From NCBI GenBank assembly GCA_003584005.1, contig QXHL01000013.1:1-64000 (forward strand): a stretch of DNA of 64,000 nucleotides, read 5' to 3'. This document shows, piece by piece, positions 6,674-21,937 of the stretch. The position numbers and the translations under genes are program-made. The stretch comes from Alicyclobacillaceae bacterium I2511. GTDB taxonomy: Bacteria; Bacillota; Bacilli; Alicyclobacillales; Alicyclobacillaceae. The notes beneath the pieces are model-generated. The model did not search any database and was not told where the DNA came from. It saw only the letters and a program-made list of their open reading frames with translations. Each line of letters begins with the position of its first letter. Position 1 is the stretch's first letter.

Positions 6674-6745
6674 GCCACCTTGGCTCAGGGGTAGAGCGGC
6701 TCACTCGTAATGAGCAGGTCCCCGGTTCGAATCCGGGAGGTGGCT
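6674..6745 (+). tRNA. tRNA-Thr (CGT), attachment site of the integrated element
   Basis: GCCACCT (6674-6680) pairs with AGGTGGC (6738-6744). The anticodon stem GCTCA/TGAGC encloses CTCGTAA, so the anticodon is CGT. The T loop is TTCGAAT. CCA is not encoded. The gene is intact, and its 3' half from the anticodon loop onward recurs at 21938-21988. Confidence 0.97.
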
Positions 6746-6754
6746 CCAGAAAAA
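6704..6754 (+). repeat. attL: 51-bp direct repeat, left copy
   Basis: It begins in the tRNA-Thr anticodon loop and runs through the T arm and 3' end to five A residues beyond the gene. It is identical to 21938-21988. Confidence 0.93.
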
Positions 6755-6816
6755 AGCCCGTCATGGCGCGGAATTTCGAGGATCGTAAGGTCCAAGAGAA
6801 TCCGCGCTATTTTATA

Positions 6817-6878
6817 TTGTGCGCCTTCAGTGCGCCTAACTGTTGGGGGTTATTTTTTGTGCGCCTGTTTGTGCGCCT
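6817..6878 (+). promoter_or_regulatory. Left-end integrase arm-type sites
   Basis: Copies of TTGTGCGCCT lie at 6817-6826, 6857-6866 and 6869-6878, with a variant AGTGCGCCT at 6829-6837. The same 10-mer occurs at the other end of the element and in front of int, as expected for arm sites bound by the integrase N-terminal domain. Confidence 0.7.
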
Positions 6879-7996
6879 GTGCCAAGGAGTGCAGACATGG
6901 CTTGAACAACTTGTTCTTGCATCTGTGGGACCACGTGCATGTACGTGCTTAAAGTGAGAGTGGGGTTACTGTGTCCTAAACGTTCCGATATTATCTTTGT
7001 ATGAATGTTGGCTGCCAGAAGTAGCGTTGCACTGGAATGTCTCAGGTCATAAATCCGGATCGATTCAGGCAAGCCCATGGCTTTTAAGACAGGTTTGAAA
7101 TATCGCTTTGCAATGTTGTGTTCTGCACTGTAACCTCCTATTTGATTGGGGAACACTAAATTGTGATCTTCCCACACATCCGCTTTTAAACGTTCTTCTG
7201 CTAGGCGTACTTTGTGCGCTTTCAATGCCGCGATAGTAAGCGGAGTAACAGGAACGCTCCGTCTTGACTTTGGCGTTTTCGGATCACCTATATAGAGTTT
7301 TGTTCTGCCTGTGGAAATGACTGTGTTGATATGGATTATTCCATTATCAAGGTCCACGTTGTCCCATGTGAGACCTAGGGCTTCACCAGGCCGAAAACCA
7401 GAGTCCAGCAAAAGAATAAAATAGGCATAGTATCGGTTTTCTTGAATACTAGTAATAAACTTGCTTGCTTCATCCGGGGATAGTGGGCGCATTTCATGTT
7501 TTTGTATTTTGGGAGGGGTCACTAAACTCGCAACGTTACGATTCAGAGCACCCCATTTGACTGCCTCGACTAATGCTGAATGTAAAATAGCGTGACATTT
7601 ACGGGCGATATGGGGTCCATTCTCAGATGTGATTTTGTTATATGCTTTTTGCACTTGGTCAGGCCTTAATTCGGATAGTTTGATATGACCTAGAAGTGGA
7701 ATTAGATAATGAGTGATTGCATATTCGTAGTCATCACGGGTGCGTTCACGAATTCGCTGACCTGCAACGTCATTTAACCAGCGTAGCAGATATTGAGATA
7801 TGTTCTCTTTAGAAGGAGCTAAGAACGTGCCTTGTGCCTTGTCAGATTGCTGTTCCGCTAGCCAACCATCTGCCTCTTTCTTCTTGGCAAAGGTTTTAGA
7901 TACCCAGTGGCGTTTGCCGTCTGCATCTTTTCCCACAAAAACTCTTGCCAAGTAATTCCCATTCTCGCGTTTTATGACTTGCCCTCGTCTTGGCAT
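6836..7996 (-). CDS. int: Tyrosine recombinase/phage-type integrase
   Basis: 386 residues from ATG at 7996, chosen over 8011 because GGAGG sits 8 bases upstream. Domain order: N-terminal arm-binding AP2-like domain (GNYLARVFVGKDADGKRHWVSKTF), SAM-like core-binding domain (about 55-160), then the catalytic domain. That domain has Arg in DSGFRPGEALGL, the Lys beta-hairpin, HxxR as LRHSS with its preceding tyrosine region IYDLRH, the second His in ERLGHSN, and the nucleophilic Tyr in STYMHV. This is the Tn916/L5-like integrase family. It reads towards the tRNA-Thr attachment site. Its stop lies within an arm-type repeat cluster, and another repeat overlaps its ribosome site, so integrase binding could repress its own synthesis. 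Confidence 0.95.
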   Translation of the reverse strand: MPRRGQVIKRENGNYLARVFVGKDADGKRHWVSKTFAKKKEADGWLAEQQSDKAQGTFLAPSKENISQYLLRWLNDVAGQRIRERTRDDYEYAITHYLIPLLGHIKLSELRPDQVQKAYNKITSENGPHIARKCHAILHSALVEAVKWGALNRNVASLVTPPKIQKHEMRPLSPDEASKFITSIQENRYYAYFILLLDSGFRPGEALGLTWDNVDLDNGIIHINTVISTGRTKLYIGDPKTPKSRRSVPVTPLTIAALKAHKVRLAEERLKADVWEDHNLVFPNQIGGYSAEHNIAKRYFKPVLKAMGLPESIRIYDLRHSSATLLLAANIHTKIISERLGHSNPTLTLSTYMHVVPQMQEQVVQAMSALLGTGAQTGAQKITPNS

Positions 7997-7997
7997 T

Positions 7998-8072
7998 TTG
8001 TGCGCCTCCATCTGCCTATCTAGTACAAACTCATTTTAACTCATAGCAGTTAGGCGCACAATAGGCGCACAG
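7998..8072. promoter_or_regulatory. Arm-type repeats overlapping the int start region
   Basis: TTGTGCGCCT at 7998-8007 overlaps the int ribosome site. Inverted copies AGGCGCACA lie at 8052-8060 and 8063-8071, in the region where the int promoter must be. This suggests autoregulation or accessory binding. Confidence 0.6.
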
Positions 8073-8145
8073 ACATTGTTTTCTCCTTGGTATTAAAGTG
8101 TTTTTTTATGATACGTTCATAGTTAATGAGCAGGTCATATCGTTT

Positions 8146-8697
8146 TTATTCTCTAGTGCCCCAGAATCCTATCTGATTTAAGTTACTTGTTTCAAGGAGG
8201 TCTGCATTGAACACACCCCCTTTAACTTCTAACTTTAGCTGTTGCTCCTCGTTCATTTGCACCGGGGCCAGCCCGTACACCATCGCCGCCGTGTGTCGTT
8301 TGGACGTTGCGTCCGGACCGCCCCGCATGAACACCAGAGACGCCGTGTTCCACTCATCGTCCAAACCCCATATGCCCGACTCCAGATGATTTTGCAGCCG
8401 TTGATACGCCACTTTGCCATCCCGTTGATAGATTAACACATTTTGCACCCGGTATGTCATTACCCCGGCCTCCAAGACCTCTGGGGCCTGGTTCGTAGGC
8501 GCGGTGTACAGGACAAATGTCCGAATTGGTCGCTGCAAGTTAAAAAACAGGTGTACGCCGTACAGAAAGAACCGAAACGGCGTAGGCTCCCTCGTCGATT
8601 GGAACTCAAAGTGTCCCAAGCTGTCGTCTGCCAGACGAACCACCAGGTCCAGCAGGTCTTCACGGATGTTCACCGTCTCGATGTTGGACGAAATCAC
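8146..8697 (-). pseudogene. Truncated Rpn-type PD-(D/E)XK nuclease/transposase fragment
   Basis: The frame encodes EDLLDLVVRLADDSLGHFEFQS followed by RFFLYGVHLFF and RPIRTFVLYTA. This is the catalytic block (D...ExQ) and following helix/strand of Rpn-family recombination-promoting nucleases. The usual N-terminal start of the domain is missing: the frame upstream is closed by TAG about 35 bp before the GTG at 8697. The C-terminal part ends early at 183 residues against roughly 280-320 in the family. It is most likely an inactive remnant, though a GTG-initiated product is possible. It is element cargo and convergent with nothing nearby. Confidence 0.6.
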
Positions 8698-8788
8698 ATC
8701 CTTGACTTCATTATACGAAGAAACGCTCTAGTCCGTCTATCTAAGCGTTTTGCCTAGAAACCAAATTGCACAGTTACTTACATGTACA

Positions 8789-9154
8789 TTACAGCCCCCT
8801 GCGAACCGTGCCGTCCCATATCCGCTTGATCTCTTGTTCCGTCCCGCAGACCGGGCAACACCGATGCGACGTAGGTGTGACCCACTCCACCCAAAACGGG
8901 TGCCCACGTCCGCAGATGTACCCGCGCAGCATTTGGCTGTCCTGGTGCATGATCCCCTCATAGCGAGCCACGAGCAGCGGTCGGGGTAGAGCCAGTAACT
9001 GTGCGATCCACGCCTTGACTGCGGTCACGACCAGTTGCGTCATAGGCCGCTCCTGCAGATCTGCGACACGCTGCAGGGCCTCCTCCTCCGCAGTCAGATA
9101 CACGGTCAACCGATGATCCCGTTTCTCTGCCTCTGGCCTTTTCGGACGTGCCAT
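8789..9154 (-). CDS. Ribbon-helix-helix-like protein with C-terminal zinc ribbon
   Basis: 121 residues from ATG at 9154, with GAAGGG 6 bases upstream; GTG 9172 and ATG 9160 are alternatives. The N-terminal region RDHRLTVYLTAEEEALQRVAD has the beta-strand plus helix layout of CopG/Arc DNA-binding proteins. The C-terminal region has CGRGH and CPVCG about 30 residues apart, consistent with a zinc ribbon. Such proteins are usually small regulators or antitoxins, but no toxin partner is adjacent apart from the decayed Rpn gene 90 bp downstream. Role uncertain. Confidence 0.6.
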   Translation of the reverse strand: MARPKRPEAEKRDHRLTVYLTAEEEALQRVADLQERPMTQLVVTAVKAWIAQLLALPRPLLVARYEGIMHQDSQMLRGYICGRGHPFWVEWVTPTSHRCCPVCGTEQEIKRIWDGTVRRGL

Positions 9155-9339
9155 GCCCATCCCTTCAATCACACCGTTATTTACAGGTACAGTTTATCTC
9201 TACCAAACAAATTGTACATGGTTATTTACACCTTACACACCTTGCGCGCTGTGACAACAGCGTTCATCCTGAAAATGGCCTCACTGGTTGCCAGCGGGAC
9301 CATTTTGTACCCAGCTATTCCCGGTAAAGAACATGCTCC

Positions 9340-9780
9340 GGTAAGTGCTCAGACCATGATACTGGCGCGGTTAGGTCATTCTCGCTCGTTTACTCTAGAT
9401 TCGATAGTTGTCGTGCGAGGGAGGGTCTCCCTAGTTCCAGACACAACTTTCATTGCATGCTGTTCCCTCTACACCGGAGGATTCTTCCGTGCTGCTTACC
9501 CAGATTCTTCACACGTTCCGTGGCCTTCGCCGTTACACACGCGGCTCGGCATCCTCTTGACCCTTGCGGGCTTCAAATTAACGATGCGGCAGGATTCACT
9601 TCATGTTGCGGCCTGCAATGTTGCTTCACCCTATTGGGCTTTTCACAGGGCTTCACCCTTAGGCTCTCCCCACCAGGTGCCTGCTAGCTACGAGGCGGTC
9701 TGGTCCCTACCTCGACCGGACTCTCACCGGTTAGTTGTGCCTAGCTTGGCTAGGCGCGCTGCGAATTATTTGACGCTCAC
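9340..9780 (-). mobile_element. Group II intron 5' ribozyme remnant (no reverse transcriptase)
   Basis: Read on the minus strand, the stretch begins GTGAGCGTC at 9780. It then carries blocks typical of bacterial group II intron domain I: GGTGAGAGTCCGG, GGCACCTGGTGGGGAGAG, CCTAAGGGTGAAGCCC, GGGTGAAGCAACATTGCAGG and AACATGAAGTGAATC. No intron-encoded reverse transcriptase follows, and I cannot find a domain V hairpin, so only the 5' RNA portion survives. The long plus-strand frame across this region is a by-product of structured RNA sequence and is not coding. Boundaries are approximate. Confidence 0.65.
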
Positions 9781-10350
9781 CTTTTAACCCATTCCTCATT
9801 GCCCAGTCAACATCGATTGAAATTTCGCTTGACGAACACACTGCCGAACAAAGTGTAACCTTAAGTCATGAGGTGCAAGCGCAGTGGTGGAAATTATCCT
9901 ATGCAAATGGAATGTTGTCGATCTCTTAACATTACAAGTGAATAAAACATAGATAAACTTGATGCCTCCCGCATCGCAAGCCGCTAATAATCCGCTGATT
10001 CAGGCGGTTTCTGAAACTTTGCAGCCAACCTCATCAGTTAAATAGGCTTTTTCGAGCCGGGAGCAATAAAGATCCCGATTTCCACATGGTTTCAACGTGC
10101 TCTCTATAAATCACTTTTCGGTGATGGTTCTACCCTTCAGGTAGCGATCCTCTGCATATTTGACCGAAAACCAAACAAACTGACAGAATTATTCGTAGTA
10201 ACTGTTCTTAAAGGATTTGTAGAATTCCTGACGAATAGTTCTAAAAGCCGATGTGCGCGTTGTTTCGGTACAGCGCTAGGCGGTAACGCCTAACTAAAAA
10301 CCGACAGCAGAAACTAACTGCTGAACTATATCTCTCAAACTGGTATCTGA
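9781..10350. other. Gene-poor stretch upstream of the ArgH-like remnant
   Basis: About 570 bp with stops in all frames. A short plus frame at 9783-9929 (FNPFLIAQSTSIEISLDEH...) has coding-like composition but no start. I searched for the ArgH signature GSSIMPQKRNP in the plus frames and did not find it, so the N-terminal part of the neighbouring ArgH-like gene is absent rather than frameshifted nearby. Confidence 0.5.
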
Positions 10351-10776
10351 AACGATACCCCTGCTAATCAAGCCGCAATGCGCGAAAGAGCAGAACAAGG
10401 TTACACTTCTGCTACCGAATTTGCTAATCAATTGGTAGTTCATACTGGAATGTCATTTCGGGCTGCTCATAAAACAGTCGGAGAAATGGTTCGGACGGCC
10501 ATCCAAAGAGGAGCAGTCCCTCTCCAAGAACAGTTTTCTGAATGGGAGATAAACAACAACTTTGAGATAGGGCTTTCCAATGTTGATCCTCAATCTATCG
10601 CTCGAAAGGCAGACTTCGGCGGCGGTCCCGGAGTACATTCATTTGAGCGTACCCTAGTTAAGCAGAAAAAAGTGTGGAATGAAAAACTCTCGTATGTGCA
10701 CGACCAATTATCCTTTTGGAAAACTGCAAAGAAAACACTTGATAGAAGGGTTAAAAGTCTCATCAACATTGATTGA
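10351..10776 (+). pseudogene. C-terminal fragment of an argininosuccinate-lyase-like protein
   Basis: After an in-frame TGA at 10348-10350 the frame reads NDTPANQAAMRERAEQGY, then TSATEFANQLV, MSFRAAHKTVGEMV and RKADFGGGPG. It matches the C-terminal domain of the ArgH branch of the fumarase/aspartase superfamily (ATDLAdyLV...FReAH..VG...GG). The catalytic N-terminal two thirds, including the SSIMPQKRNP signature, is missing and no ribosome site precedes the first ATG at 10378. It lies 24 bp upstream of the deacylase gene on the same strand, so it may mark the former first gene of that operon, for example an amino-acid-modifying or ligating ArgH-domain enzyme. Confidence 0.6.
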
Positions 10777-10800
10777 GCCATTGAAGCGAGGTGCGATGCA

Positions 10801-11736
10801 GTGAATAGAAGAGCCGTATATTTCTTTTGCGCAGATAAGTCTAAAGATCCTGTTGCTCACAACGTATTCCGTTCGGTTGTCAATTTGTTCAGCCCTAGTG
10901 TAACTGACTTATCCGTCGACAACTTTCCCGTCTTACATCATCAGAATAGTTCTGGAGAGTTCTACTTCGTAAATACTGCTAATGTTTTAAGCCATGATTA
11001 CGTACGGTACCTCCCTTATCTAAACTCCCTGTTTAATGACTTTGATTTTGCAGGAATTGTGAATTGGCACGAGGGTAAAAACTCACCTGACCCTATCTTT
11101 TGTGTCCATACCACAGGTGATGTAATATCTGGGATTTTTGGAGCAGCACATCCTCTTTACACGCGAAATTTACTAATCGCACTTGAACACGAACGCATAA
11201 ATTACGGATTGTACAATTTCAAAACTTTGTCGGAGGCAACTCACTGGTCTGGAGTACTTCACGGTACCTCACCAACCTTGATTACAAAATACACTGTGCC
11301 AATTGTCGATGTTGAAATTGGCAGTGCCGTAGAAAGTTGGGGTGACTCAACTGCAGCCAATGCGATCGCTTCCGCCATTGTTCGTGTATTTGAATGGGAC
11401 GACCCGAACGCGAAATCTGTTCTGTGTGTGGGTGGAGTGCATTTTGAACCTTCATTCTGTCACGCGGTATTAAATTCCTCAGAGGAATCTTCCATCATGG
11501 TTTCTCACATATTGGCTAACCAGTGGGTGGTCGCTGGCGGGTATGACCAGGACTTGGGGCTTGTAAAATTGGAATCCTGCTTTAATTCGATTCTTCATAA
11601 AGTTGACGCTATTGTGTTTCATGACAATCTGAAAGGTTCGTATAAGGAGAAACTACGTAGCTACGCTCTTCAAAATGGCATTCCAGTGTTCAAACATCAA
11701 TATCTACGAGATCCAAGCAAACTACCGATGAGGTAA
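10801..11736 (+). CDS. D-aminoacyl-tRNA deacylase of the DtdA/GEK1 (DTD2) type
   Basis: 311 residues from GTG 10801, with GAGG ten bases upstream. Family landmarks are present in order: NWHEGKNSPDPIFCVHTTGD (H-E-G...hTTG block), then FGAAHP, then SEATHWSGVLHGTSPTL equivalent to the E-x-THHGP motif, then VDVEIGSAVESWGD matching the xxEIGSTxxxW block, and VGGVHFEP. The second His of THHGP is replaced by Trp. DTD2 enzymes hydrolyse D-aminoacyl-tRNA and N-modified D-aminoacyl-tRNAs and are known mainly from archaea and plants, so this bacterial mobile copy is unusual. It precedes a formyltransferase and an EamA exporter in one tight operon, which suggests a specialised rather than housekeeping role. 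Confidence 0.72.
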   Translation: MNRRAVYFFCADKSKDPVAHNVFRSVVNLFSPSVTDLSVDNFPVLHHQNSSGEFYFVNTANVLSHDYVRYLPYLNSLFNDFDFAGIVNWHEGKNSPDPIFCVHTTGDVISGIFGAAHPLYTRNLLIALEHERINYGLYNFKTLSEATHWSGVLHGTSPTLITKYTVPIVDVEIGSAVESWGDSTAANAIASAIVRVFEWDDPNAKSVLCVGGVHFEPSFCHAVLNSSEESSIMVSHILANQWVVAGGYDQDLGLVKLESCFNSILHKVDAIVFHDNLKGSYKEKLRSYALQNGIPVFKHQYLRDPSKLPMR

Positions 11737-11751
11737 CCGAAGGTGATTAGT

Positions 11752-12582
11752 ATGTCAAAGAGAATTGCTATCTTGTGTTCTGACGACGCTCACCATAAGT
11801 ACTTAATCTCATATTTTCGTTCAAAGTTCAATGTTTTATCTGTAGTGATTGAACCCGGTAAAAAGCAAAGAGAACGCTCGTTAAAAAATAGGCGTTACAA
11901 AGATTACGCTTACAGTCAATATCATTATCTTCGCCGTTCTCTGTTGGGCCTAAATGCGTATCGAAGGGCCTACTTTCATAACCATTCGCCGGAGTTAGGC
12001 GAAGTAACCTATGTGGATTCAATAAATGATCCAAAGGTGGAAACAGTCCTATCCAATGCGAATCCAGATGTGACAGTCGTTATGGGGACTTCAATACTTA
12101 GCAAGAAAATTCTCAAAGTCGCCGGACCAAATATTATTAATGTTCATGGAGGTTACCTTCCTTACTATAGAGGGAATCACTGCTTTTTCTTTGCCGTCTA
12201 TGAACGGGCATTTGATCGAATTGGTTCGACAATTCATTTCGTGGACGAAGGAATTGACACTGGTCAAATCATTGAAATTGTTGAACCTTCAATTTATCCT
12301 GACGATAAACCTGAATCACTATACTGCCGTGCAGAATTAATTGCAATACATCGCTTGGCCGAACTCATAGAACAATTTAATCAAGGGGTTAACTTTCCAA
12401 GCTTTAGAACTATGGAACAGGGAACATTGTACAGAACACGCGACCGTAAACCGGTTCACGACATTCAATTTTGGTGGTGGAGAAAGACGGGAAAATTAAT
12501 GCTTCCTTATCGAAAGTCCTCCATTGAAGAACGGTTTTCAAGATTTCTACCTGAGATATCGGGGCGCATTGGAGGCAACTAG
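11752..12582 (+). CDS. Formyltransferase-fold enzyme (Fmt/PurN-like catalytic domain)
   Basis: 276 residues from ATG 11752, with AAGGTG 6 bases upstream. The core carries the formyl transferase active site: INVHGGYLPYYRGN supplies the Asn and His of the N-x-H motif, and GSTIHFVDEGIDTGQII supplies the catalytic Asp. The N-terminal Rossmann segment (RIAILCSDDAHHKYLISYF) would bind 10-formyl-tetrahydrofolate. There is no Fmt C-terminal tRNA-binding OB domain, and the last 60 residues are basic and Trp-rich. The acceptor is therefore unknown; amino sugars, amino acids or aminoacyl compounds are all possible. The start is 15 bp after the deacylase stop, and the exporter gene begins 2 bp after its own stop. 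Confidence 0.8.
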   Translation: MSKRIAILCSDDAHHKYLISYFRSKFNVLSVVIEPGKKQRERSLKNRRYKDYAYSQYHYLRRSLLGLNAYRRAYFHNHSPELGEVTYVDSINDPKVETVLSNANPDVTVVMGTSILSKKILKVAGPNIINVHGGYLPYYRGNHCFFFAVYERAFDRIGSTIHFVDEGIDTGQIIEIVEPSIYPDDKPESLYCRAELIAIHRLAELIEQFNQGVNFPSFRTMEQGTLYRTRDRKPVHDIQFWWWRKTGKLMLPYRKSSIEERFSRFLPEISGRIGGN

Positions 12583-12584
12583 GT

Positions 12585-13520
12585 ATGAAGCCTGAAGAGT
12601 ACAAACAGACGCAGCCAATAGTGTCAACCTCACATACAGTTAACTGGGAAGTCATTTTACATATGACGGTTCTCTACTTGGTTTGGGGCAGTACCTTTCT
12701 CGCAATTCGAGTCGCCGTTAGTGGGGGATTCCCACCATTCTTAATGGGAGCTATGCGGGTACTAGTTGCTGGCCTCGCTCTCATTCTATGGGCTGTTTAT
12801 CGGAAACAAAAGATTTCTATCTCAATGAGGGATTTGATAATACTTTTCTTGTCGGGAGTCCTTCTTTGGGTAACAGGGAATGGGTTGGTTCTTTGGGCAG
12901 AGCAACATGTCGCGTCCGGTTATTCTGCCCTATTATTTGGTTCCCTTCCGATTTGGGTGGCAGTGATTGATGCAATCGTGAGCAAAAAGAAGCTGAGTAT
13001 AGGGCTGATCTTATCACTCGCAATTGGATTTGCCGGTCTGGCCGTCCTAAGTGTTCCCGAATTAACAGGTGCCTCAAAAATACAGGGGCTCGCTGTGATT
13101 TTATTGCTGATTGCTCCTATTAGTTGGGCCGTGGGTACGATTATCCAGCGAAGACATTACGTTGCCGTGTCCTCCATAGTCAGTTCCGGATATCAGCAGA
13201 TATTTGGAGGTATCGGGTTCTTAATCGCCGCCCTTATCTTCCACGAACAATTTCTTATTTCCCCCAAAGAAACCGCGTGGCTTGCTTGGGGCTATTTGGT
13301 TGTTTTTGGTTCGTTGCTTGCGTATACTTCATTTGTCCAAGCTTTGAGATTACTCCCGTCCAACATCGTCATGACCTACGCTTACGTCAATCCTGTGATA
13401 GCCGTATTCCTTGGCTGGTTCTTTCTAAAAGAGAAGATTACACCGTGGACGGTTGCCGGAATGATATGTATTGTACTTAGTGTTGTGGGAGTTTTGCGAA
13501 ACAGTAACGGTGGGAGATAG
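12585..13520 (+). CDS. EamA/RhaT-family DMT transporter
   Basis: 311 residues with ten predicted membrane helices arranged as two EamA repeats (about 25-150 and 165-305). The first opens with YLVWGSTFLAIRVAVSGGFPP and contains the family-typical LVLWAEQHVASGYSALLFGSLPIWVA segment. DMT proteins export amino acids, nucleotides and small metabolites. ATG 12585 has GGAGG 9 bases upstream, inside the formyltransferase end, so translation is coupled. It would export the product of the two upstream enzymes, or an amino-acid derivative. It is the third gene of the cassette. Confidence 0.85.
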   Translation: MKPEEYKQTQPIVSTSHTVNWEVILHMTVLYLVWGSTFLAIRVAVSGGFPPFLMGAMRVLVAGLALILWAVYRKQKISISMRDLIILFLSGVLLWVTGNGLVLWAEQHVASGYSALLFGSLPIWVAVIDAIVSKKKLSIGLILSLAIGFAGLAVLSVPELTGASKIQGLAVILLLIAPISWAVGTIIQRRHYVAVSSIVSSGYQQIFGGIGFLIAALIFHEQFLISPKETAWLAWGYLVVFGSLLAYTSFVQALRLLPSNIVMTYAYVNPVIAVFLGWFFLKEKITPWTVAGMICIVLSVVGVLRNSNGGR

Positions 13521-13524
13521 CAAT

Positions 13525-13734
13525 TTGGAAGTAAAGAGTCATTTATCCGCCAGCTATTACACGTCCAGTTTAAAGAGTGCATATTACGATGAAAGTTGGC
13601 TCTCCCACAAATTAGTTGATCCCTCATCGGGTGGCAGTTTACCCTGGAATACTTCAACAGCACATGTTGATTCACGAAATTCCCCATTTTCAAGAGCTCG
13701 TACAGGTTTTGAGCGAGGTCCAGTGACGAATTAG
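13525..13734 (+). CDS. Possible small fourth gene of the deacylase cassette (TTG start)
   Basis: A 69-codon frame opens with TTG at 13525, 4 bp after the EamA stop, with GGGAG 7 bases upstream inside the EamA gene. The product is rich in Ser, Tyr and Asn (SHLSASYYTSSLKSAYYDES) and hydrophilic, with no domain I know. A coupled small protein or a peptide substrate is possible, but the TTG start and lack of homologs in memory make this weak. Confidence 0.25.
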   Translation: MEVKSHLSASYYTSSLKSAYYDESWLSHKLVDPSSGGSLPWNTSTAHVDSRNSPFSRARTGFERGPVTN

Positions 13735-13924
13735 CCAGCAGAAGGCCTTGTCCGTCGACTAGAATCGAGTTCGCTATTTTGGCCTGTACAGACCCAAATG
13801 AAAATAATAAGTAATTTATTATAATTTATTGACATTTTAGATTGTGTAAAAGAGTATTTGACCCATTTAATGGTTTTGTTTTGTAGTGAGGGGTTTATCA
13901 TCAACTAATTTGCGGGAGAGCCCG

Positions 13925-14352
13925 AAAGTTGGCACCAAATCCGAAGCAAAGTTGCCACTACATTTGAATTAAATCCGGCTCCGATTCCGGTTCAAAGTTG
14001 CCACTTCTTTTTCCCTCTTATGAACTCACCAGAGTGTAGGGCGAACTGGAAATTTACTCGGGTTCTACGTTGGATTTTTCCGGGGAAAGTCCCTGGATTT
14101 TTTGCATCGATTCTCCCGTTAACTTTGATTTTATACGCGTTGTGGACCAGCCTGTCCAGTATGGCCTCTGCGAGGGTTGGATCGGCCATTACCAAGTGCC
14201 TTCTTGCAATCTCCCTTTGAGACGACCCCTCGTGCAGATACGCGAGCAGAATCTCCTGCTTCTGAATCAACAGAACCATCTCCTCAACCTCCTCACCGTA
14301 GTGAGGGTACCATAGGTGGGGTACTTTTCGATTGTTCCGATGGGGTACTTTT
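13925..14352 (-). mobile_element. IS21-family internal-deletion remnant
   Basis: One end has repeats GGGGTACTTTT (two copies, 14318-14350). The other has repeats AGTTGGCACC/AAGTTGCCAC (three copies, 13928-14006). Multiple terminal repeats of this type bound IS21 elements. Between them only the istA start and the istB end remain. Exact termini are not determined. Confidence 0.65.
13992..14279 (-). pseudogene. istA-istB fusion remnant
   Basis: ATG 14279 begins an IstA-like N-terminus (LLIQKQEILLAYLHEGSSQ then REIAR), which is the helix-turn-helix start of IS21 transposases. After about 30 residues it jumps directly to an IstB-like C-terminus (DPTLAEAILDRLVHNAY). Some 1.9 kb of coding sequence, including the DDE and AAA+ domains, has been deleted, so it cannot transpose itself. 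It may still be mobilisable by a full IS21 relative if the ends are intact. Confidence 0.7.
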
Positions 14353-14548
14353 AGCTTATCAAACACATCAGGGAAGCCGAAAATGTGCTCCACACGTTCA
14401 CCTTCCTCAAATTGGCGATATATCTGGCGGCTGGAACCATACAAACTAACTCCTTGCGCAAAAATGCGAACAACAGCCCCACGGATTCGTTCGTGGGGCT
14501 GTTGAAATGTTACAGATACAGTCCTGACAAACAAAGTTGAAGACATGC

Positions 14549-14974
14549 TCATTCTTCGGGCAATTCTAGTCCAAAGAATTCCTCTATCATCAAGAGAACT
14601 TCCTCACACGCATCTTCGCTGATAGTAGCGACATGCTTGAGCAGATCCGCTTTAAGAGCAGGCTGAATCAACCTTGTACGCACAATCGATTTGGTTCTCA
14701 CGCCATCACGGTCTGGTGATAATGGGACATCCCCATACGCGATACAGCCAACCCTATGAGACAAAGGTGCAATACTGATGATTGGTGTCAGAGGGTCAGC
14801 ATTAGTTTGGTTGTTGGATACCACCAACACAACCCTAATTGGATGTATGACTCGCGACCCATCCCGGTCAGCATCCGGTATGCCTACGAGTTCGTCCGTG
14901 ATAGTCCATACTGATCCAAACGCAAACTCACGAGTGTCGTACATGCTACTTTGAATTAGATTTGTCAGCGACAC
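14549..14974 (-). CDS. MazF/PemK-like toxin of a Panacea toxin-antitoxin pair
   Basis: 141 residues from GTG 14974, with AGGAGG 6 bases upstream. The fold markers are those of the PemK/MazF RNase family: early FGSVWTITDE, VVLVVSNNQTN, SIAPLSHRV, YGDVPLSPDRDGV, then KSIVRTRLIQP with the conserved Ser-Arg pair, and a C-terminal helix. Such toxins cleave mRNA. The gene overlaps the 3' end of the upstream Panacea-domain gene by 29 bp, a typical antitoxin-first arrangement. It is cargo of the tRNA-Thr element, where it would stabilise the element against loss. Confidence 0.7.
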   Translation of the reverse strand: MSLTNLIQSSMYDTREFAFGSVWTITDELVGIPDADRDGSRVIHPIRVVLVVSNNQTNADPLTPIISIAPLSHRVGCIAYGDVPLSPDRDGVRTKSIVRTRLIQPALKADLLKHVATISEDACEEVLLMIEEFFGLELPEE

Positions 14975-15584
14975 CTAAGGCCCTCCTCCTAAGCGGTTCG
15001 GTATCTTGATACTCCGACACCAGAACCTCCCAATACTCTGGATTAGGAACCTTTGGAAGCCCCATTTTTGCAATACGACTTTGCGCGGCGGCACGTCCGG
15101 CACGTGTCCGTTTGAAGGTGCTCTTGGTATAATCCATATCCAATTCAACCCCTTCAAGAGACTCCCCGTGTTCCTCCTCCTCTAATAGCACCTTTAACAT
15201 CGGAGGAGTGGAATAGACGGTATCTATCATCGGTTGGTAAGGCTTACGGCGTAACAAATTCAATACAAAATCAGCTATTTCCATTTCTTCCGAAATTAAT
15301 TCAGGCGATGTGTTGCCTGCGGAATAAGTATATGTGGGTTTGCCGTAAGGATTGACAGACATTTTTCCATCGACAAATCTGAAGTCCATCAGTTCGTCCA
15401 ATTGGTCAATGATGGCCTCGGCGTAAGGGCCGTAATGCCATCGGATAAATTTTACCTCTGTCCCTGGGCGTCCAAGATGAAGTCTGTGGTAATATTCATA
15501 CATATATAAATACTTGACCACCTCTGTCCGGTTCAGCGTTCGATGTGAAAGAAAGTACAACAGAACTTCCCGGAGTTTCCCCAA
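14946..15584 (-). CDS. Panacea-domain (SocA-like, DUF4065) antitoxin
   Basis: 212 residues from TTG 15584, with GAGGGG 8 bases upstream. The N-terminal half contains RTEVVKYLYMYEYYHRLHLGRPG and WHYGPYAEAIIDQLDEL, the helical core and YGPY/F motif of Panacea (DUF4065) proteins. This domain pairs with many unrelated toxin folds to form PanAT toxin-antitoxin systems and neutralises by direct binding. The C-terminal part is basic (TRAGRAAAQSRIAKMG) and probably contacts the toxin. It overlaps the MazF-like gene downstream. Assignment rests on motif memory; the partner fits. Confidence 0.72.
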   Translation of the reverse strand: MGKLREVLLYFLSHRTLNRTEVVKYLYMYEYYHRLHLGRPGTEVKFIRWHYGPYAEAIIDQLDELMDFRFVDGKMSVNPYGKPTYTYSAGNTSPELISEEMEIADFVLNLLRRKPYQPMIDTVYSTPPMLKVLLEEEEHGESLEGVELDMDYTKSTFKRTRAGRAAAQSRIAKMGLPKVPNPEYWEVLVSEYQDTEPLRRRALGVADKSNSK

Positions 15585-16197
15585 CCGTTATCCCCTCATC
15601 CGATTAAACTAAAACAGGTCATAGCAGAACGGAACTCTACTTTGACCCACTGCTTTAAACTACCTAGATAAAATTATACCAAAATACTACACTTGCAAGG
15701 ACTTCACGTCAAATCGTTAGTAGATTCAGTGTCGAATAAATTCATATTAGGTCGATGGAAAAGGCAACCTTCGAGTTCAAGAGTCCTATCTATCCTTGCT
15801 TCCCCCCTCATATTTCAAACCCTTGGATTTTTTGTCCCGTATGCGTAAATACAATCAATGCCCTTAGTTTGGCATTCGCTCGTATGCTGACATCGGCGAT
15901 CAATCTGTACTGTCGGAGAAGGAGATCCCATTTGATGAAATTCACCTCTCTGCTCGGCAACATTGACTCTTCGATTCATAATCTTGCAATTGATTACGAA
16001 TTGTCTCGGTGGCATCATTCCCATGTCCCTATCCCTCCCCTTTCAATGTCTCACGTTTTCTCTCCAATATTCAGACATGGAAACGTGCGTTCATTCCAAT
16101 TCTATCATCTTCAACCCATTTATGTAAGTCTAGGGTCTACTCTATCCCGGCAACTCTGAATTTTTCCGTGCAGCGTCCAATTAGGATGGAGGGGCTA
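15585..16197. other. Non-coding stretch in the element
   Basis: AT-rich promoter-like region next to the antitoxin, then about 450 bp in which short frames on both strands lack ribosome sites or recognisable motifs. I see no gene. Confidence 0.5.
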
Positions 16198-16221
16198 TTT
16201 TCCTGACAAGTGTCAGGAAAA
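16198..16221. promoter_or_regulatory. Perfect 11-bp palindrome (operator or bidirectional terminator)
   Basis: TTTTCCTGACA (16198-16208), AG, then TGTCAGGAAAA (16211-16221). With T and A runs on the outer sides it could terminate transcription on both strands or be a repressor site. Confidence 0.5.
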
Positions 16222-16294
16222 GTCAAAACCCATACTTGGAGGATGAAGAAATCCAACGGGTCCAACTTTGAGCCTGTACTGTACCTCGTGGTCT

Positions 16295-16615
16295 AACATC
16301 GATTTTGCGGCCCATAGCGACCTCTGTAACGAGTTTTTGGTGGCAACCATAGCAAGTATAACCTTCGACCACCGTAAGAGGCCGCAAATGACACGCTAGG
16401 TCGTCTATCGGAAGCCTACGGGGTGCAGTAAACAACCTAACATCGAGTTTGCGTCCCCTAGCGTCCTCTGTAACGAGTCTTTGGAGGGTGGTATGGAAAA
16501 TCACCTTCGCTAATAGCGAGAGGCCGTAAATGGCACGCTAGGCCGTCTATCAGGAGCCTACCGGGTGCAGTAGACAACCCAACATCGGGTTTGCAGCCTC
16601 TTGCTGCCCCGTAGC
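16295..16615 (-). repeat. Tandem ~143-bp imperfect repeats (2.2 copies), possibly decayed coding
   Basis: Copies start at 16295, 16439 and 16581 (AACATCG...GCG), so the periods are 144 and 142 bp. On the minus strand the copies translate to related segments (RKLDVRLFTAPRRLPIDDLA and CKPDVGLSTAPGRLLIDGLA, each followed by CHLRPL). The 2-bp difference in period shifts frame between copies, so any former repeat protein is broken. Confidence 0.6.
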
Positions 16616-16918
16616 GGTGTTTGCTCACACTGACAGCACTATTTTTTCTACCTTTGTTCTTAAAGGACATCAGCTCTACCTGTGTGGCCACTCTCCGCTT
16701 TAAACTCGGAGAGTCGGACTTTAGACGAAGTTATTTCTCCAATATTTGCCGGTATCTCTAAGACACTGGCAACTTCTGCCAGTTTATCACCGTATTTGAG
16801 TCGCTCAGCAAAAACTCCTTATTATGGGGATTTTGTCGACTTTGTCGAGTGGTTTGTCGAGTAGTGTCACGCCCTTTTAAGCCAGTCGTGGCGCGGGTTT
16901 ATGGCACTCTGTCGAGTT

Positions 16919-17233
16919 GTCGAGTTGTCGACGGAGGAAAATCAATTACGGAGGGGCTGCAAGGGCTTGGGTAGGCTTGCTAGTTCGTCCGGAGGCGCAT
17001 TGTACCTTATGGCCTATAGGAAACGGTCTTAAGATCTGAAGTTTTCTGTGACAGGTGTGGACTACCCGATATTATTGCCAAAACGCTTTCCTTGTATAGC
17101 AGATTCGGCATGTTTGGGTAGTCCATAGTCTCTTAAAACGAATATGAAACACCAGGTTACGTTGTCTTAAGAGTGTGTCCATCCCTTGTGTCTGTTCCTG
17201 CGTACTTTCAAAGCTACAAAAGAACGTGGACAC
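16919..17233. repeat. Inverted duplication A, left arm (about 315 bp)
   Basis: It is nearly identical in reverse complement to 18219-18545. It runs from the GTCGAGTTGTCGAC iteron through GGGCTTGGGTAGGCTTGC to a CTACAAAAGAACG..GGACAC block. A shorter direct copy of part of the right arm lies at 18000-18070. Confidence 0.8.
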
Positions 17234-17375
17234 GCACAATACAGCCTGAATGATCAAGGCAAACCTTGTATTACACTCGTGGCTGGGCTACTGCCCCCAT
17301 AGTTGGGGTTACCCCCCATCGGCAACCTGACAAGGTCGACAAAAACTCCTTATTGTGGGGATTTTGTCGAGTTGT
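17226..17375. repeat. Inverted duplication B, left copy: 3' end of the DUF3987 gene
   Basis: It is almost identical in reverse complement to 18532-18687. It includes the last two dozen codons and stop of the DUF3987 gene (CITLVAGLLPP), the following GC-rich hairpin region and the TTTTGTCGAG iteron. The copy faces the opposite way and is joined to duplication A. Confidence 0.8.
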
Positions 17376-17402
17376 TGAGTTGTTGACGGAGGAAAATCAA
17401 TT

Positions 17403-17600
17403 ATGGGGAGTCTGACCTTTCAACAGACTGCCTCCGCTAACCCTCATTTTAAACGAGAGTATAAATTCAGGTACTCAACAAACTCAACAACTCAACAATT
17501 CTCAAAAATCGTGGCTGTGGCGCGGATTTATGGTGCTGTTGCTACTCAACAAATTGATCAACATCACTCAACAAAGTTCCATAATATGTATTTTTGTTGA
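17403..17600 (+). CDS. Small ORF following an iteron block, copy 1
   Basis: ATG 17403 has GGAGG ten bases upstream, within a TTGTTGACGGAGG block. The 65-residue frame begins MGSLTFQQTASANP. Its start region is shared with the ORF at 17710, and a third copy at 16945 has ACG in place of ATG. Much of the 3' half translates iteron repeats, so it may be a leader or fortuitous frame rather than a protein gene. Confidence 0.25.
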   Translation: MGSLTFQQTASANPHFKREYKFRYSTNSTTQQFSKIVAVARIYGAVATQQIDQHHSTKFHNMYFC

Positions 17601-17709
17601 GTGTGTTGAGTAGATTGTTGAGTGGTGTCACGCCCTTTAAAGCCAGTCGTGGCGCGGGTTTGTGGCACTTTGTTGAGTTGTTGAGTTGTTGACGGAGGGT
17701 AAATCAATT

Positions 17710-17901
17710 ATGGAGGGGCTGACCTTTCAACAGACTGCCTCCGCTAAACCCTCACTGGTGCATCAGATGCACCTCGAATTTAGGCGGACCAAAAAATCAA
17801 TAAAGCTAGACGATAGGAGAGTCATCCAAAAAAACCACCTGTCTGAGAGACACAAGTTTTTTGATTTATGCCCGGCCCTACTGGTTTTAAAGGACCCCTA
17901 A
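17710..17901 (+). CDS. Small ORF following an iteron block, copy 2
   Basis: ATG 17710 has GGAGG 11 bases upstream, behind a TTGTTGAGTTGTTGAC run. The 63-residue product begins MEGLTFQQTASAKP, matching the start of the ORF at 17403, then continues basic and hydrophilic. No domain recognised. Its repeated iteron plus ribosome-site plus start layout suggests these blocks once preceded functional genes. Confidence 0.3.
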   Translation: MEGLTFQQTASAKPSLVHQMHLEFRRTKKSIKLDDRRVIQKNHLSERHKFFDLCPALLVLKDP

Positions 17902-18218
17902 TATACACGCCAAATACACGCTATGTACATGCTATGTGCATGTTAAATACACGCAAAATACAGTCGAGGAGAGCTTTTTAGTGATGATATCAGGTGGCCC
18001 ACACCTGCTACAGAAAACTTCAGATCTTAAGACCGTTTATCCTGTTGTTTCCTATAGGCCATAAGGTACAATACACCTCTAAAGGCACACAGCACACGGG
18101 TATGATAAACAAGGATGTCCAAATATTGTAAAGCTCAGAGTTGAGCTTTACAAATTTTTTCATTGAGAAGAGAAAATTCTGATTCAAGGCTTGCCTTGAA
18201 CGTTCAGAATATTGTAGG

Positions 18219-18545
18219 TGTCCGCGTTCTTTTGTAGCTTTGAAAGTATGTAGGAACAAACACTAGGGATGGACACACTCTTAAGACAACGTGCCCTGGT
18301 GTTTCGTATTCGTTTTAAGAGACTATGGACTACCCAAACATGCCGAATCTGCTATACAGGGAAAGCGTTTTGGCAATAATATCAGGTAGTCCACACCTGT
18401 CACAGAAAACTTCAGATTTTAAGACCACTTATCTCGATGTTTCCCATAGGCCATAAGGTACAATGCGCCTCCGGACGAACTAGCAAGCCTACCCAAGCCC
18501 TTGCAGCCCCTCCATAATTGATTTACCCCCCGTCGACAACTCGAC
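18219..18545. repeat. Inverted duplication A, right arm
   Basis: It is the reverse complement of 16919-17233. It lies directly downstream of the DUF3987 gene in that gene's orientation, so it is probably the source copy. Confidence 0.8.
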
Positions 18546-18687
18546 AAAATCCCCACAATAAGGAGTTTTTGTCGACCTTGTCAGGTTGCCGATGGGGGGT
18601 AACCCCAACTATGGGGGCAGTAGCCCAGCCACGAGTGTAATACAAGGTTTGCCTTGATCATTCAGGCTGTATTGTGCGTGTCCACGC
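18532..18687. repeat. Inverted duplication B, right copy (native 3' end of the DUF3987 gene)
   Basis: It covers the gene's last codons and the downstream iteron. The copy at 17226-17375 is inverted. Confidence 0.8.
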
Positions 18688-20048
18688 TTCACTATGGCAT
18701 CGTTCAATTGCCTAGCTTCATTAGCGGTTTTAATCCCTGCAACACGATACATTTGCATATCTCTAGGTGTGGCTGATTGACCTTCCTGCATTTGCAACCA
18801 TTTAACAACCTGCCGGACTTGTTTGTCCTCTGCGGTCTCGCTCAAGTGCTCGTATACTTTTTTAGCGTGGGATTTGAAATAATCCACTAGGTCAGCCGCT
18901 GCTAAAATACTCTCTTCGTCAATTTCACCGTCATTTGCTAGCCCACTGACAACACGCAACATCTGGACGGTCAATGCCAAGCGCAACATATAGATTTCCA
19001 ACTTTGCCCATGGCCCCTCAAGGCGTTCCGGGAAGTTTGGGGCGTTAATCTCTGCAAAATGTTCGTCTTGCCAGGCATTGTATAGTGTCTTTGCCATCTT
19101 AGTCAGAGTCAAGATGATGGGTGTGCCATCAGGGTGCCCTTGCAAGCCATTCAATTTTTCACACACATTCTTCCAGCCTGCTTCTGCTGCTTTAGAAAAG
19201 TTCACGTCCGAACGTCTGCGTTTCATGGCTGCCGGGAAACCGAAAAGAACTCGGTGTATGAATCCGTCAGCCTCGCTCATTTCGTTGCGTAGCCCCATAA
19301 GCACATCAGGTTGTATCCCACCTACAATAGCGAGGTGAGGGTCAGGGATGTAATTATGGCGGGCCATGCGTATGATGTTAACGGGATTGAAGGACCATAT
19401 GCTCAGAAAATGTGCCTTATCCCCACCAGCCCCACCCTTGTATTGGTTCATAGACTTCAACCACCCGCTCAGTTCGTCCCAATAGGCGATTAGGTTGGGG
19501 TTTACCTCCATGTTTGCAAACAAGGCTTCAATTGTGGCATCTGATACGTAGGCAAACTTCATTTTTGGCTCTTCTGGCTCAGTGTGGCCTCTCTTATCGG
19601 CCTTCCACGTTGCAAAATCAATATCATATTTTTCCTTTTCAAGCTGATATGTTTCCCAGAGTTTCGTTTGCATATCAAAGACAGGTTTCATTGCTTTTGC
19701 CAGCGGCTCGGTTTTGCCACTACCAGGAGCACCCACAATAGCAAACCAGCCTTGCGCATATTGGCGAAACCCAGGTTTTGCTTCGATCATGCGCTTGTTT
19801 CCCAACAGCCCCCCTGTAACACCTAGTACAGCCAATGCAGCAAAGTCGCGGGGGCATGGGATACTGTCAGCCGTTTCCTCAACGAATCGCCGCACTTCTG
19901 GTGGAAACACAGCCAGCGGAAAGTCATCGACTGTAGTCTCGTGATAAGGGACGGCGATAAACTCATTGCCCTCTTGGGCGAAAACCGCTTTTAAATTCTG
20001 CTTTTCCTGCGCTTTTTTTAATTTCTCGGCACCCAGCAGCTTACCCAC
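18609..20048 (-). CDS. DUF3987-type replication ATPase/helicase-like protein
   Basis: 479 residues from GTG 20048, with AAGG 8 bases upstream; GTG 20057 is an alternative. Walker A is GAPGSGKTEP (about residues 108-117), preceded by CPRDFAALAVLGVTGGLLG. A Walker-B-like LIAYWDELSGWLKSMNQYKGG follows near 210-230. This is the DUF3987 architecture, found next to or fused with primase-polymerase domains in plasmids, phages and satellites, where it is thought to act as a replicative helicase or loader. It overlaps the primase gene by 8 bp. Its 3' end is duplicated in inverted orientation 1.3 kb away. Confidence 0.82.
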   Translation of the reverse strand: MGKLLGAEKLKKAQEKQNLKAVFAQEGNEFIAVPYHETTVDDFPLAVFPPEVRRFVEETADSIPCPRDFAALAVLGVTGGLLGNKRMIEAKPGFRQYAQGWFAIVGAPGSGKTEPLAKAMKPVFDMQTKLWETYQLEKEKYDIDFATWKADKRGHTEPEEPKMKFAYVSDATIEALFANMEVNPNLIAYWDELSGWLKSMNQYKGGAGGDKAHFLSIWSFNPVNIIRMARHNYIPDPHLAIVGGIQPDVLMGLRNEMSEADGFIHRVLFGFPAAMKRRRSDVNFSKAAEAGWKNVCEKLNGLQGHPDGTPIILTLTKMAKTLYNAWQDEHFAEINAPNFPERLEGPWAKLEIYMLRLALTVQMLRVVSGLANDGEIDEESILAAADLVDYFKSHAKKVYEHLSETAEDKQVRQVVKWLQMQEGQSATPRDMQMYRVAGIKTANEARQLNDAIVKRGHAQYSLNDQGKPCITLVAGLLPP

Positions 20049-20895
20049 GCCGCGCACCTTCTTTTTGTGCTTGCCGTATGGCTACGCTGTTAAATGTTTT
20101 GTGCAATTCTGCTAACAGCAAGGGTGGGTCATTGGTTAGATTCCAGGCTTCGACTAAAGCAAGAGCAATATAAGGGTCCATGTGCCGAAACGAAAGGAGA
20201 TAACCAGCCAGCCTTGCAGCCGCATTGTTGCGCCCACCCTCAGCCACGCCATTGGCAATCTGTAGTAAATCTTGCGAATGTGGCTCAGTCGAGTGCAGTG
20301 GAACCGTGCCAGCGGTTCGAAGTTTGCTCGAAACGAGTTTTAGAAGCCACTCGGGTGCATCTGCCAGTGGAGTAGTCCATGGGGCTTTTAACCACACATA
20401 GTTTTGCTCGGTAACGGAAGGTGGGGCCACTACATAGCCACCATCCCCTCGCCAATCAATCCCTGACAGCCCTGCAAGGTTAGCGCCAATACCGAAAGGA
20501 CGGCTCGGGTCATATTTGAAATACAGGTGCCATCCACCGCCGCCTGTCTGCACAGTCCAGGTTGGGTGCAATTGGCTATACTTACCTTGCAGTCCCTGCA
20601 CACTCTTAAGGCCGCCGTGCCTAGGGTCAATGTCCAGCACCCATATACCGGACACCGCGCCTGTGGCAATACCAATATTGCAGGAGCGTCCTGCAGCTAG
20701 ACGTTGAAACTCCGCTAGGTCCTGTGTGGCATCTTTGTACCCATGCCCCGTTAAGGGGGTTTTACCCCCTGCAACGAGAGGAAAAATTGCCATACCACAA
20801 GCTATCAATTGGGTTGCACCCTGTGTTATGATAACTGTGGTTGTTTTATCGCGTTCTTGCCCGGCCTGCTCAGCCGGGCTTTTTGTTGTCGTCAT
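20041..20895 (-). CDS. Bifunctional DNA primase/polymerase (prim-pol domain)
   Basis: 284 residues from ATG 20895, with AAGGCGG 9 bases upstream. Prim-pol signatures: IACGMAIFPLVAGGKTPLTGHGYKDATQD, then NIGIATGAVSGIWVLDIDPRHGG with the catalytic D-x-D, TVQTGGGGWHLYFKY with the H motif, and GIDWRGDGGYVVAPPS. The family synthesises primers and extends DNA on mobile replicons. The gene starts two bases after the excisionase stop and overlaps the DUF3987 gene, making a three-gene operon reading leftward. It supports autonomous replication of the excised element. Confidence 0.9.
   Translation of the reverse strand: MTTTKSPAEQAGQERDKTTTVIITQGATQLIACGMAIFPLVAGGKTPLTGHGYKDATQDLAEFQRLAAGRSCNIGIATGAVSGIWVLDIDPRHGGLKSVQGLQGKYSQLHPTWTVQTGGGGWHLYFKYDPSRPFGIGANLAGLSGIDWRGDGGYVVAPPSVTEQNYVWLKAPWTTPLADAPEWLLKLVSSKLRTAGTVPLHSTEPHSQDLLQIANGVAEGGRNNAAARLAGYLLSFRHMDPYIALALVEAWNLTNDPPLLLAELHKTFNSVAIRQAQKEGARRG
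20859..20884 (+). terminator. Terminator-like hairpin antisense to the prim-pol start
   Basis: GCCCGGC (20859-20865) and GCCGGGC (20873-20879), then T5, oriented for plus-strand transcription. It falls inside the first codons of the primase gene; no plus-strand gene is evident upstream of it. Confidence 0.4.
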
Positions 20896-20896
20896 A

Positions 20897-21097
20897 TCAA
20901 TCAACCGCCTTTTTCCAGCCGCCTGGCAGAGCTTTCCCGCCATTGGCGAGCCAACTTTCCAATGCCTCTGGTTTCACCCGTACTTGACGGCCCATGTGGA
21001 TGCAGGGTAAAATGCCTTCCCTAGCCATCTGATAGGCTCGATCCTCTGTGACATTTAACACTTCTGCTACTTCTGATAGCTTTAATAGTTTTTCCAA
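20897..21097 (-). CDS. xis: Excisionase-like helix-turn-helix protein
   Basis: 66 residues if started at TTG 21097 (GGGGG 9 bases upstream); GTG 21103 is an alternative. LKLSEVAEVLNVTEDRAYQMAREGILPCIHMGRQVRVKPEALESWL is the complete winged-helix (MerR/excisionase, HTH_17) pattern with helix, turn, recognition helix and wing. Such proteins bend attachment-site DNA and favour excision, or regulate the adjacent replication genes. It heads the leftward xis-primase-DUF3987 operon and is preceded by four perfect-period 10-bp repeats and a 16-bp palindrome, probable operator sites. Confidence 0.75.
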   Translation of the reverse strand: MEKLLKLSEVAEVLNVTEDRAYQMAREGILPCIHMGRQVRVKPEALESWLANGGKALPGGWKKAVD

Positions 21098-21120
21098 AGC
21101 CACATACCCCCGTAGTTTGA

Positions 21121-21160
21121 TCACTGTGGACCACTGTGGACCGCTGTGGATCACTGTGGA
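21121..21160. repeat. Four tandem 10-bp repeats (YCRCTGTGGA) upstream of xis
   Basis: Units TCACTGTGGA, CCACTGTGGA, CCGCTGTGGA and TCACTGTGGA follow without gaps, one per helical turn, ending 23 bp upstream of the proposed xis start. They would position several protein copies on one DNA face. Confidence 0.8.
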
Positions 21161-21173
21161 TCAGCGTGCTAGA

Positions 21174-21189
21174 GCGAAAATATTTTCGC
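21174..21189. promoter_or_regulatory. 16-bp perfect palindrome
   Basis: GCGAAAATATTTTCGC, next to the 10-bp repeats; a likely repressor site for the xis-replication operon. Confidence 0.5.
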
Positions 21190-21805
21190 GTTAGCAGTGA
21201 AATATCGAGTTACGTTGAGTTTGGCGGCGTTTAGTGTTGTTAGGTTGCGCTATATCACCATCTGCGACTATTCCTAACGCATAGTTGGTTTTGTCGTGAA
21301 TACCGACATCCGCTATACTTACATTAAGCGGAACACACAATGCTATCAGGCGATATATGAAAATGTAATCCTGTTGTGAATTGTGTGATCCATCTTGACA
21401 TCACTCCAATATTTAAATTTAGGGTTCTGTCTAGAACCCGTGAAAAGGGGCCAACCTGAAAGTAAACAGGTGCAATTGTGCATTTCCCGTGTAACGCTGG
21501 TATGGCGTACACAGTGCCCCGACTGTTGAATTGAATTGCCCGTGGCAAGCCATAATTTCCTATCGCCGCCAAGTGATAAGGGAAGTTATGGCTATTCGGG
21601 TTTTCGGACCTATAAACATATTACACATGCTATGTGTAATCTAGCAAGCCTCCACACACCTCAAAAAAAAGCATGGCGAGCATGATCATCCTACCATTCT
21701 CTCCAGAACGCCCCTAAAGTCTGCGTAGCTTCCAAATCCACATCTAGCGTGTGGGAGCTTTTATGTACCCCACATCTAGCGTGCCTAAAATGAGTTTTTG
21801 AGGCT
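21190..21805. other. Gene-free right flank of the element
   Basis: About 600 bp without a convincing ORF on either strand. It contains a short direct repeat CATCTAGCGTG (near 21740 and 21773) close to the right-end arm sites. Confidence 0.45.
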
Positions 21806-21809
21806 GTTT

Positions 21810-21830
21810 TTGTGCGCCTGTTGTGCGCCT
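21810..21830 (+). promoter_or_regulatory. Right-end integrase arm-type sites
   Basis: Two copies of TTGTGCGCCT (21810-21819 and 21821-21830), about 110 bp inside attR, matching the left-end sites. Confidence 0.7.
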
Positions 21831-21937
21831 AACTCGCCTGAACTCACAAAAACTTGCTGAGCCTAGAAGAGAGAAAACCCGCGCCACATAAGGTTTTTTT
21901 GAACCTCAAGGAAACTCAAAAAACGGGATTTAGTTCT

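Follow-up and report, generated by a model that had tools for sequence, protein, structure and literature searches.

The window analysed here is a 64,000-nucleotide stretch of Alicyclobacillaceae bacterium I2511 (contig QXHL01000013.1, positions 1 to 64,000), and our subject is a gene cassette at its positions 10351-13734, which an initial annotation had read as a mobile cassette for a DTD2-type D-aminoacyl-tRNA deacylase, a stand-alone formyltransferase and an EamA exporter, preceded by an ArgH-like remnant. The four tightly spaced plus-strand frames of that description were confirmed as intact and closely packed at 10351-13520, and they are listed here together with the stretch immediately upstream.

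9784..10350, plus strand: unique non-coding DNA of 42.5% GC that separates the ArgH fragment from a piece of group II intron; intron-like repeat matches stop near 9781-9785
10351..10776, plus strand: truncated ArgH-like lyase, C-terminal 141 codons; PF14698 (ASL_C2), 4e-11
10801..11736, plus strand: DTD2-like protein of the THWSG subfamily, GTG start; PF04414 (tRNA_deacylase), 99 bits, E 3e-28
11752..12582, plus strand: stand-alone N-formyltransferase, 276 amino acids; PF00551 (Formyl_trans_N), E 1e-17
12585..13520, plus strand: EamA-family (YedA-like) exporter with two EamA repeats; PF00892, 1.5e-37, two stretches

All four frames exceed the curated Pfam cut-offs, and the exporter also matches NF008432 (6e-52), under that model's cut-off. 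The gaps between the frames are 24, 6 and 2 nt, the middle one widening to 15 nt with the preferred formyltransferase start: the frame opens at 11743, but the ATG at 11752, preceded by AAGGTGA, is the likelier start because the relative from Blastocatellia AA13 begins at the equivalent place. Ribosome-binding sites stand at the expected distance, with AGGTG (10789) for GTG 10801, AAGGTGA for ATG 11752, and GGAGG for ATG 12585. The formyltransferase carries the N-x-H...D catalytic residues in addition to its PF00551 match, and its N-x-H-G-G and D-T-G motifs are kept in 5/5 aligned proteins. The GC content of the cassette is 40-46%, versus 50% for the window. An Rfam scan detected no riboswitch close to the cassette, and neither the cassette proteins nor their neighbours matched an anti-phage defence library. 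A 69-codon TTG-started open reading frame (ORF) at 13525-13734, suggested at first as a fourth member, was rejected, as it has no family match and most of it (137 of 210 nt) overlaps a multi-copy 325-bp repeat (13598-13922).

The product of 10801-11736 is the sole PF04414 match in its genome, scoring 99 bits (99.9 in the genome search) against a curated cut-off of 33.6. Its fold was assessed with an AlphaFold2 model (mean predicted local distance difference test score, pLDDT, 75.7) compared by VIA-align Z scores. The two archaeal structures of the DTD2/DtdA/GEK1 family were the closest matches to the predicted fold, namely 2gfq (Z 30.2, root-mean-square deviation 2.4, 266 residues) and 1yqe (Z 28.0 over 270 residues); the next family scored only 12.5. 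The protein is thus a homologue of the PF04414 family by profile and by predicted fold alike, in agreement with the DTD2/DtdA-type identity first assigned to it. Since pLDDT falls below 50 at the motif loop (148-162) and at 213-227, the model is silent on the geometry of the active site. An N-acetylmuramoyl-L-alanine amidase (4rn7, Z 11.8) also matches the fold, as do nucleosidases comparably; matches of this kind (Z 11-12) are too widespread to serve as a functional argument and were set aside.

The altered motif reported by the initial annotation, THWSG, is indeed present at residues 147-151, where it is no one-off change but an invariant of the bacterial proteins. We compared 14 bacterial loci: the window, Blastocatellia AA13, ten from Burkholderia/Paraburkholderia, Acetoanaerobium, and one more genome of the window's phylum. 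THWSG occurs in 14/14 of them, versus THHGP in the three archaeal sequences of the alignment. The loop after the motif is longer in the bacterial proteins than in archaeal DTD2, and the choice of alignment therefore decides whether WSG counts as an insertion or as a replacement of HGP. Eleven residues are common to both groups (H90, G106, E145, T147, H148, E172, G174, S175, G211, G212, and H214), which indicates that the core is retained in the bacterial subfamily, whereas W89 (R in archaea) and D107 (N in archaea) differ. The window protein keeps every subfamily-invariant residue at 39-52% identity to its relatives. The best DtdA equivalog, NF003072 (D-aminoacyl-tRNA deacylase), scores 60 bits against a cut-off of 272. 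The protein is a variant within the known family, one of a rare bacterial subfamily marked by THWSG; as it lacks THHGP and stays below the equivalog score, it does not count as DTD2 by strict membership.

In a tree that had three archaeal rows (two of these partial) and no plant sequences, a long branch with 100/100 support sets the 14 bacterial rows apart; at this sampling the tree does not show the direction of transfer. PF04414 was found in 1/41 genomes of the window's family (the source genome itself), in 2/398 of its phylum (source genome included), and in 1/297 and 1/398 genomes of the phyla to which the Blastocatellia and Paraburkholderia loci belong, respectively (in both, the genome of the locus itself); at genus level it occurs in 6/146 Paraburkholderia and 4/65 Burkholderia genomes. 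This scatter is as expected of horizontally moved genes. Phage collections and IMG/VR held no relative of the DTD2-like protein, and in a plasmid collection it matched only the Acetoanaerobium replicon (Natronorubrum with an archaeal query).

The initial annotation named two outcomes that would refute it, the lack of a significant DtdA profile match and the lack of conserved linkage in other genomes, and neither was observed: the DTD2-like and formyltransferase genes are linked with an exporter gene in other bacteria too. The formyltransferase and DTD2-like genes share a cluster in 12/14 bacterial loci from three unrelated groups: the window, Blastocatellia, and Burkholderia/Paraburkholderia. 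An exporter gene is kept in the other clusters as well, but its type varies, being EamA in the window, LysE family in Burkholderia, and of the ABC kind in Blastocatellia, so that EamA is not the exporter of the other clusters. All ten Burkholderia/Paraburkholderia loci have the same six genes, for a GHMP kinase, an SbnA/CysK-like pyridoxal phosphate (PLP) enzyme, an ATP-grasp/ArgH fusion (NF002563, 1049 bits in one of these loci, L004), a formyltransferase, a LysE exporter and, last, the DTD2-like protein, followed by a convergent gene for an AraC-type regulator. The nearest relative of the window cassette is that of Blastocatellia AA13 (52% identity for the DTD2-like protein and 56% for the formyltransferase), in which the order is kinase, PLP enzyme, ATP-grasp protein with an L-amino-acid-ligase C-terminal domain, ArgH, DTD2-like protein, formyltransferase, and CmlA-type hydroxylase, and which shares the order ArgH, DTD2-like, formyltransferase with the window. 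The set is preceded by an ABC transporter and a nonribosomal peptide synthetase (NRPS) that has three adenylation domains. The NRPS cluster also has a B12-binding radical SAM protein; no described cluster matched it here.

In Acetoanaerobium noterae, the THWSG DTD2-like gene lies 56 nt downstream of a gene for diaminopropionate ammonia-lyase (TIGR03528, 573 bits, cut-off 532; locus L006, 8718-10930), with neither a formyltransferase nor an ATP-grasp gene adjoining. The replicon that carries it is labelled a plasmid but, at 2.6 Mb, is chromosome-sized. The DTD2-like gene in the further genome of the window's phylum has no telling neighbour. All informative neighbourhoods point to 2,3-diamino acids, and a literature search on the operon returned no match.

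The genes of the complete loci suggest what such an operon may make. The companion PLP enzyme has its best match in the SbnA 2,3-diaminopropionate synthase family (TIGR03945, 238 bits for the Blastocatellia protein, under the cut-off of 350), and SbnA structures are also its best matches; the lyase resembles ArgH, and the kinase belongs to the GHMP class. Such a trio has been proposed to supply 2,3-diaminobutyrate (Dab) in the friulimicin and pacidamycin clusters; together the three would convert threonine to phosphothreonine, then to an aspartate adduct, and then to Dab with release of fumarate. Cysteine synthase and argininosuccinate lyase genes are also reported from the cluster of a Dab-containing lipopeptide (PMC12471526). 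The three genes occur together in the Blastocatellia locus and the ten Burkholderia/Paraburkholderia loci, whereas the window has a fragment of ArgH only. By analogy, the complete operon probably makes a 2,3-diamino acid metabolite of the Dab type, in which the ATP-grasp ligase may join Dab to another amino acid and the formyltransferase would cap an amine.

What the window holds is an operon of this diamino-acid type cut down to its 3' end. The ArgH fragment, with an in-frame stop immediately upstream at 10348-10350, matches residues 355-490 of the ArgH of the Blastocatellia cluster (tblastn, E 1e-20), and it is a genuine member of the cassette, because it is nearer to that protein (49/140 identical, 35%) than to the ArgH of its own genome (26/112, 23%). 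A tblastn search with the cluster proteins found no kinase, PLP enzyme, ATP-grasp protein or remaining ArgH in any frame upstream of the cassette. With the fused ATP-grasp/ArgH protein as query, the genome yielded only a canonical-looking ArgH (contig C188) and a weak lyase match (contig C157); the kinase and the PLP enzyme were not searched genome-wide. The intact survivors are the DTD2-like, formyltransferase and EamA genes, and the synthesis genes are lost; with the GHMP kinase, PLP enzyme, ATP-grasp protein and most of ArgH missing, the trio cannot itself make a product.

The cassette lies in a putative 15.3 kb integrative element (6704-21988), integrated at a tRNA-Thr(CGT) gene, that bears all the marks of such an element, with an integrase at one end and flanking direct repeats of the tRNA 3' end; judged on sequence features, "mobile cassette" was an apt description.

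6704..6754, plus strand: left attachment repeat, the 3' half of tRNA-Thr(CGT) (tRNA gene 6674-6748, by ARAGORN); 51/51 identical to 21938-21988, E 6e-24
6836..8011, minus strand: tyrosine recombinase (integrase) adjoining the tRNA; PF00589 1e-22, PF14659, phrog_1 integrase 2e-76
13598..13922, no strand assigned: 325-bp repeat resembling a miniature inverted-repeat transposable element (MITE), 23-nt inverted ends 96% complementary, outside the cassette; recurs in its own genome
21938..21988, plus strand: right attachment repeat, a perfect 51-bp match to 6704-6754

The replication genes of the element encode a primase-polymerase (Prim-Pol) and a DUF3987 protein (18609-20943). The element also holds a PemK/MazF-like toxin next to a SocA/Panacea-domain protein (14549-15584) and, at 16293-16604, two imperfect direct-repeat families with a spacing of ~143 nt (105 nt at 80% and 51 nt at 88%). 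Besides the copy in the window, this genome has several more long copies of the MITE-like repeat, and two relatives have a few; a target-site duplication looks suggestive in the window, but the flanking sequence is found at other copies too and one copy has no duplication, and we do not claim one. The group II intron piece is a 5' portion on the minus strand at 9561-9783 (RF02003, 90 bits, Rfam match at 9601-9733), present again in many of the family's genomes, and a long plus-strand ORF at 9035-9787, overlapping it on the opposite strand, is probably spurious.

Our best explanation, which we hold tentatively and at a little under an even chance, is that the window carries the end of a truncated operon for a Dab-type metabolite on a tRNA-Thr element, whose surviving DTD2-like, N-formyltransferase and exporter genes would be a horizontally acquired self-protection half. 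Homology, fold, subfamily status, linkage, truncation and the boundaries of the element are established by the analysis; the substrate, the protective role and expression are inferred. In this scheme, if the genes are expressed, the DTD2-like enzyme would most likely clear mischarged tRNA by hydrolysing its ester bond to the diamino acid (or to the formylated diamino acid), the formyltransferase would mask the free amine, and the EamA protein would pump the compound out. A resistance remnant is the simplest account of what survives at full length, namely a relative of tRNA hydrolases, an amine-capping enzyme, and an exporter. It is the Acetoanaerobium locus, with a diamino-acid catabolic gene and no formyltransferase, that connects the DTD2-like protein with the diamino acid and not with formylation. 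2,3-Diamino acids resemble serine or threonine and, on chemical grounds, should be harder to cyclise off tRNA than longer diamino acids, so that a dedicated deacylase would make sense. Between the two roles offered by the initial annotation, the "acquired resistance module" therefore fits the remnant better than a trio that makes and exports a product, for which the synthesis genes are missing.

Several points weigh against this explanation. The second His of THHGP, R89, and N107 are replaced, and chirality or tRNA recognition may differ or be lost; for members of the subfamily, no activity, substrate or product is reported. No threonine-kinase model matched the GHMP kinase here, and threonine as its presumed substrate follows from the logic of the family. 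No prominent promoter was seen upstream of the cassette, the extent of the deletion could by itself explain why just these genes are left, and the position of the DTD2-like gene inside the Burkholderia biosynthetic operon also fits a biosynthetic role. The last point leads to the main rival, in which the DTD2-like protein acts in biosynthesis, as an amidase or deformylase: formylation protects the intermediate, and the enzyme later deformylates it or cleaves the peptide bond made by the ATP-grasp ligase. Every complete cluster has the DTD2-like gene within the synthesis operon, the substrate-side motifs are unlike those of DTD2, and the fold is matched by 4rn7; however, that amidase match is no stronger than the nucleosidase matches that accompany it, the Acetoanaerobium copy has neither formyltransferase nor ATP-grasp gene beside it, and the window retains the DTD2-like gene without the synthesis genes. 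We regard this rival as unlikely.

That the cassette is a passenger without function, decaying within the element, we consider improbable. The cut inside ArgH, the flanking intron piece and repeat element, and the lack of a prominent promoter would suit such a passenger, but three consecutive full-length frames retain their ribosome-binding sites, and neutral sequence would not for long keep all subfamily-invariant residues at the observed identity to relatives. It is more improbable still that an ordinary DTD2 was transferred into bacteria. The PF04414 score and the shared fold agree with it, as does the activity of archaeal and plant DTD2 on D- and aldehyde-modified D-aminoacyl-tRNA (PMC10942605), but the replaced THHGP, the low equivalog score and the long branch apart from archaeal DTD2 argue against it, and linkage to a diamino-acid operon is unlike general chiral proofreading.

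Beyond the window, and with less confidence than in self-protection at this locus, we consider it possible that this bacterial branch of the DTD2 fold is a dedicated 2,3-diaminoacyl- (or N-formyl-diaminoacyl-) tRNA deacylase, the self-immunity enzyme of an undescribed amino-acid antimetabolite pathway, whose resistance half travels alone on integrative elements. If so, a bacterial subfamily in an uncharacterised diamino-acid operon would give the DTD2 fold a new substrate class, the gene linkage would offer a handle for finding a new antimetabolite, and tRNA deacylation would serve as producer self-resistance that mobile elements can spread.

With the friulimicin- and pacidamycin-type Dab sets, the complete relatives have in common the kinase (GHMP class), the PLP enzyme (SbnA/CysK-like) and the ArgH-like lyase. 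Their additions are the ATP-grasp ligase, which in Burkholderia is fused to ArgH, and the formyltransferase, exporter and DTD2-like genes; of the Dab set, the window keeps just a piece of ArgH. The gvg operon for 4-formylaminooxyvinylglycine (PMC8067088) appears to share the logic of a small N-formylated amino-acid product, while the available part of its abstract describes no DTD2-like gene, GHMP kinase or ArgH. With DTD2/DtdA/GEK1, the bacterial proteins share a profile score above the cut-off, the whole-length fold, H90, E145, T147-H148, E172-I/L-G-S, and GG-x-H. They differ in their bacterial host (DTD2 is described from archaea and land plants; PMC10942605), in THWSG and the longer loop in place of THHGP, in the changes of SRH to NWH or TWH and of TGN to TGD, in the invariants of their own in the C-terminal half, and in their operon context; no motif could be assigned here to H150, the site of the catalytic mutant of AtDTD2 (PMC10942605). 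CtdA, a stand-alone canavanyl-tRNA(Arg) deacylase that protects bacteria from canavanine (PMC10018355), has an unrelated fold (a B3/4 domain) and is linked to canavanine and guanidine, not to a synthesis operon; in concept, as a stand-alone deacylase guarding against a non-protein amino acid, it is a precedent for the role proposed here.

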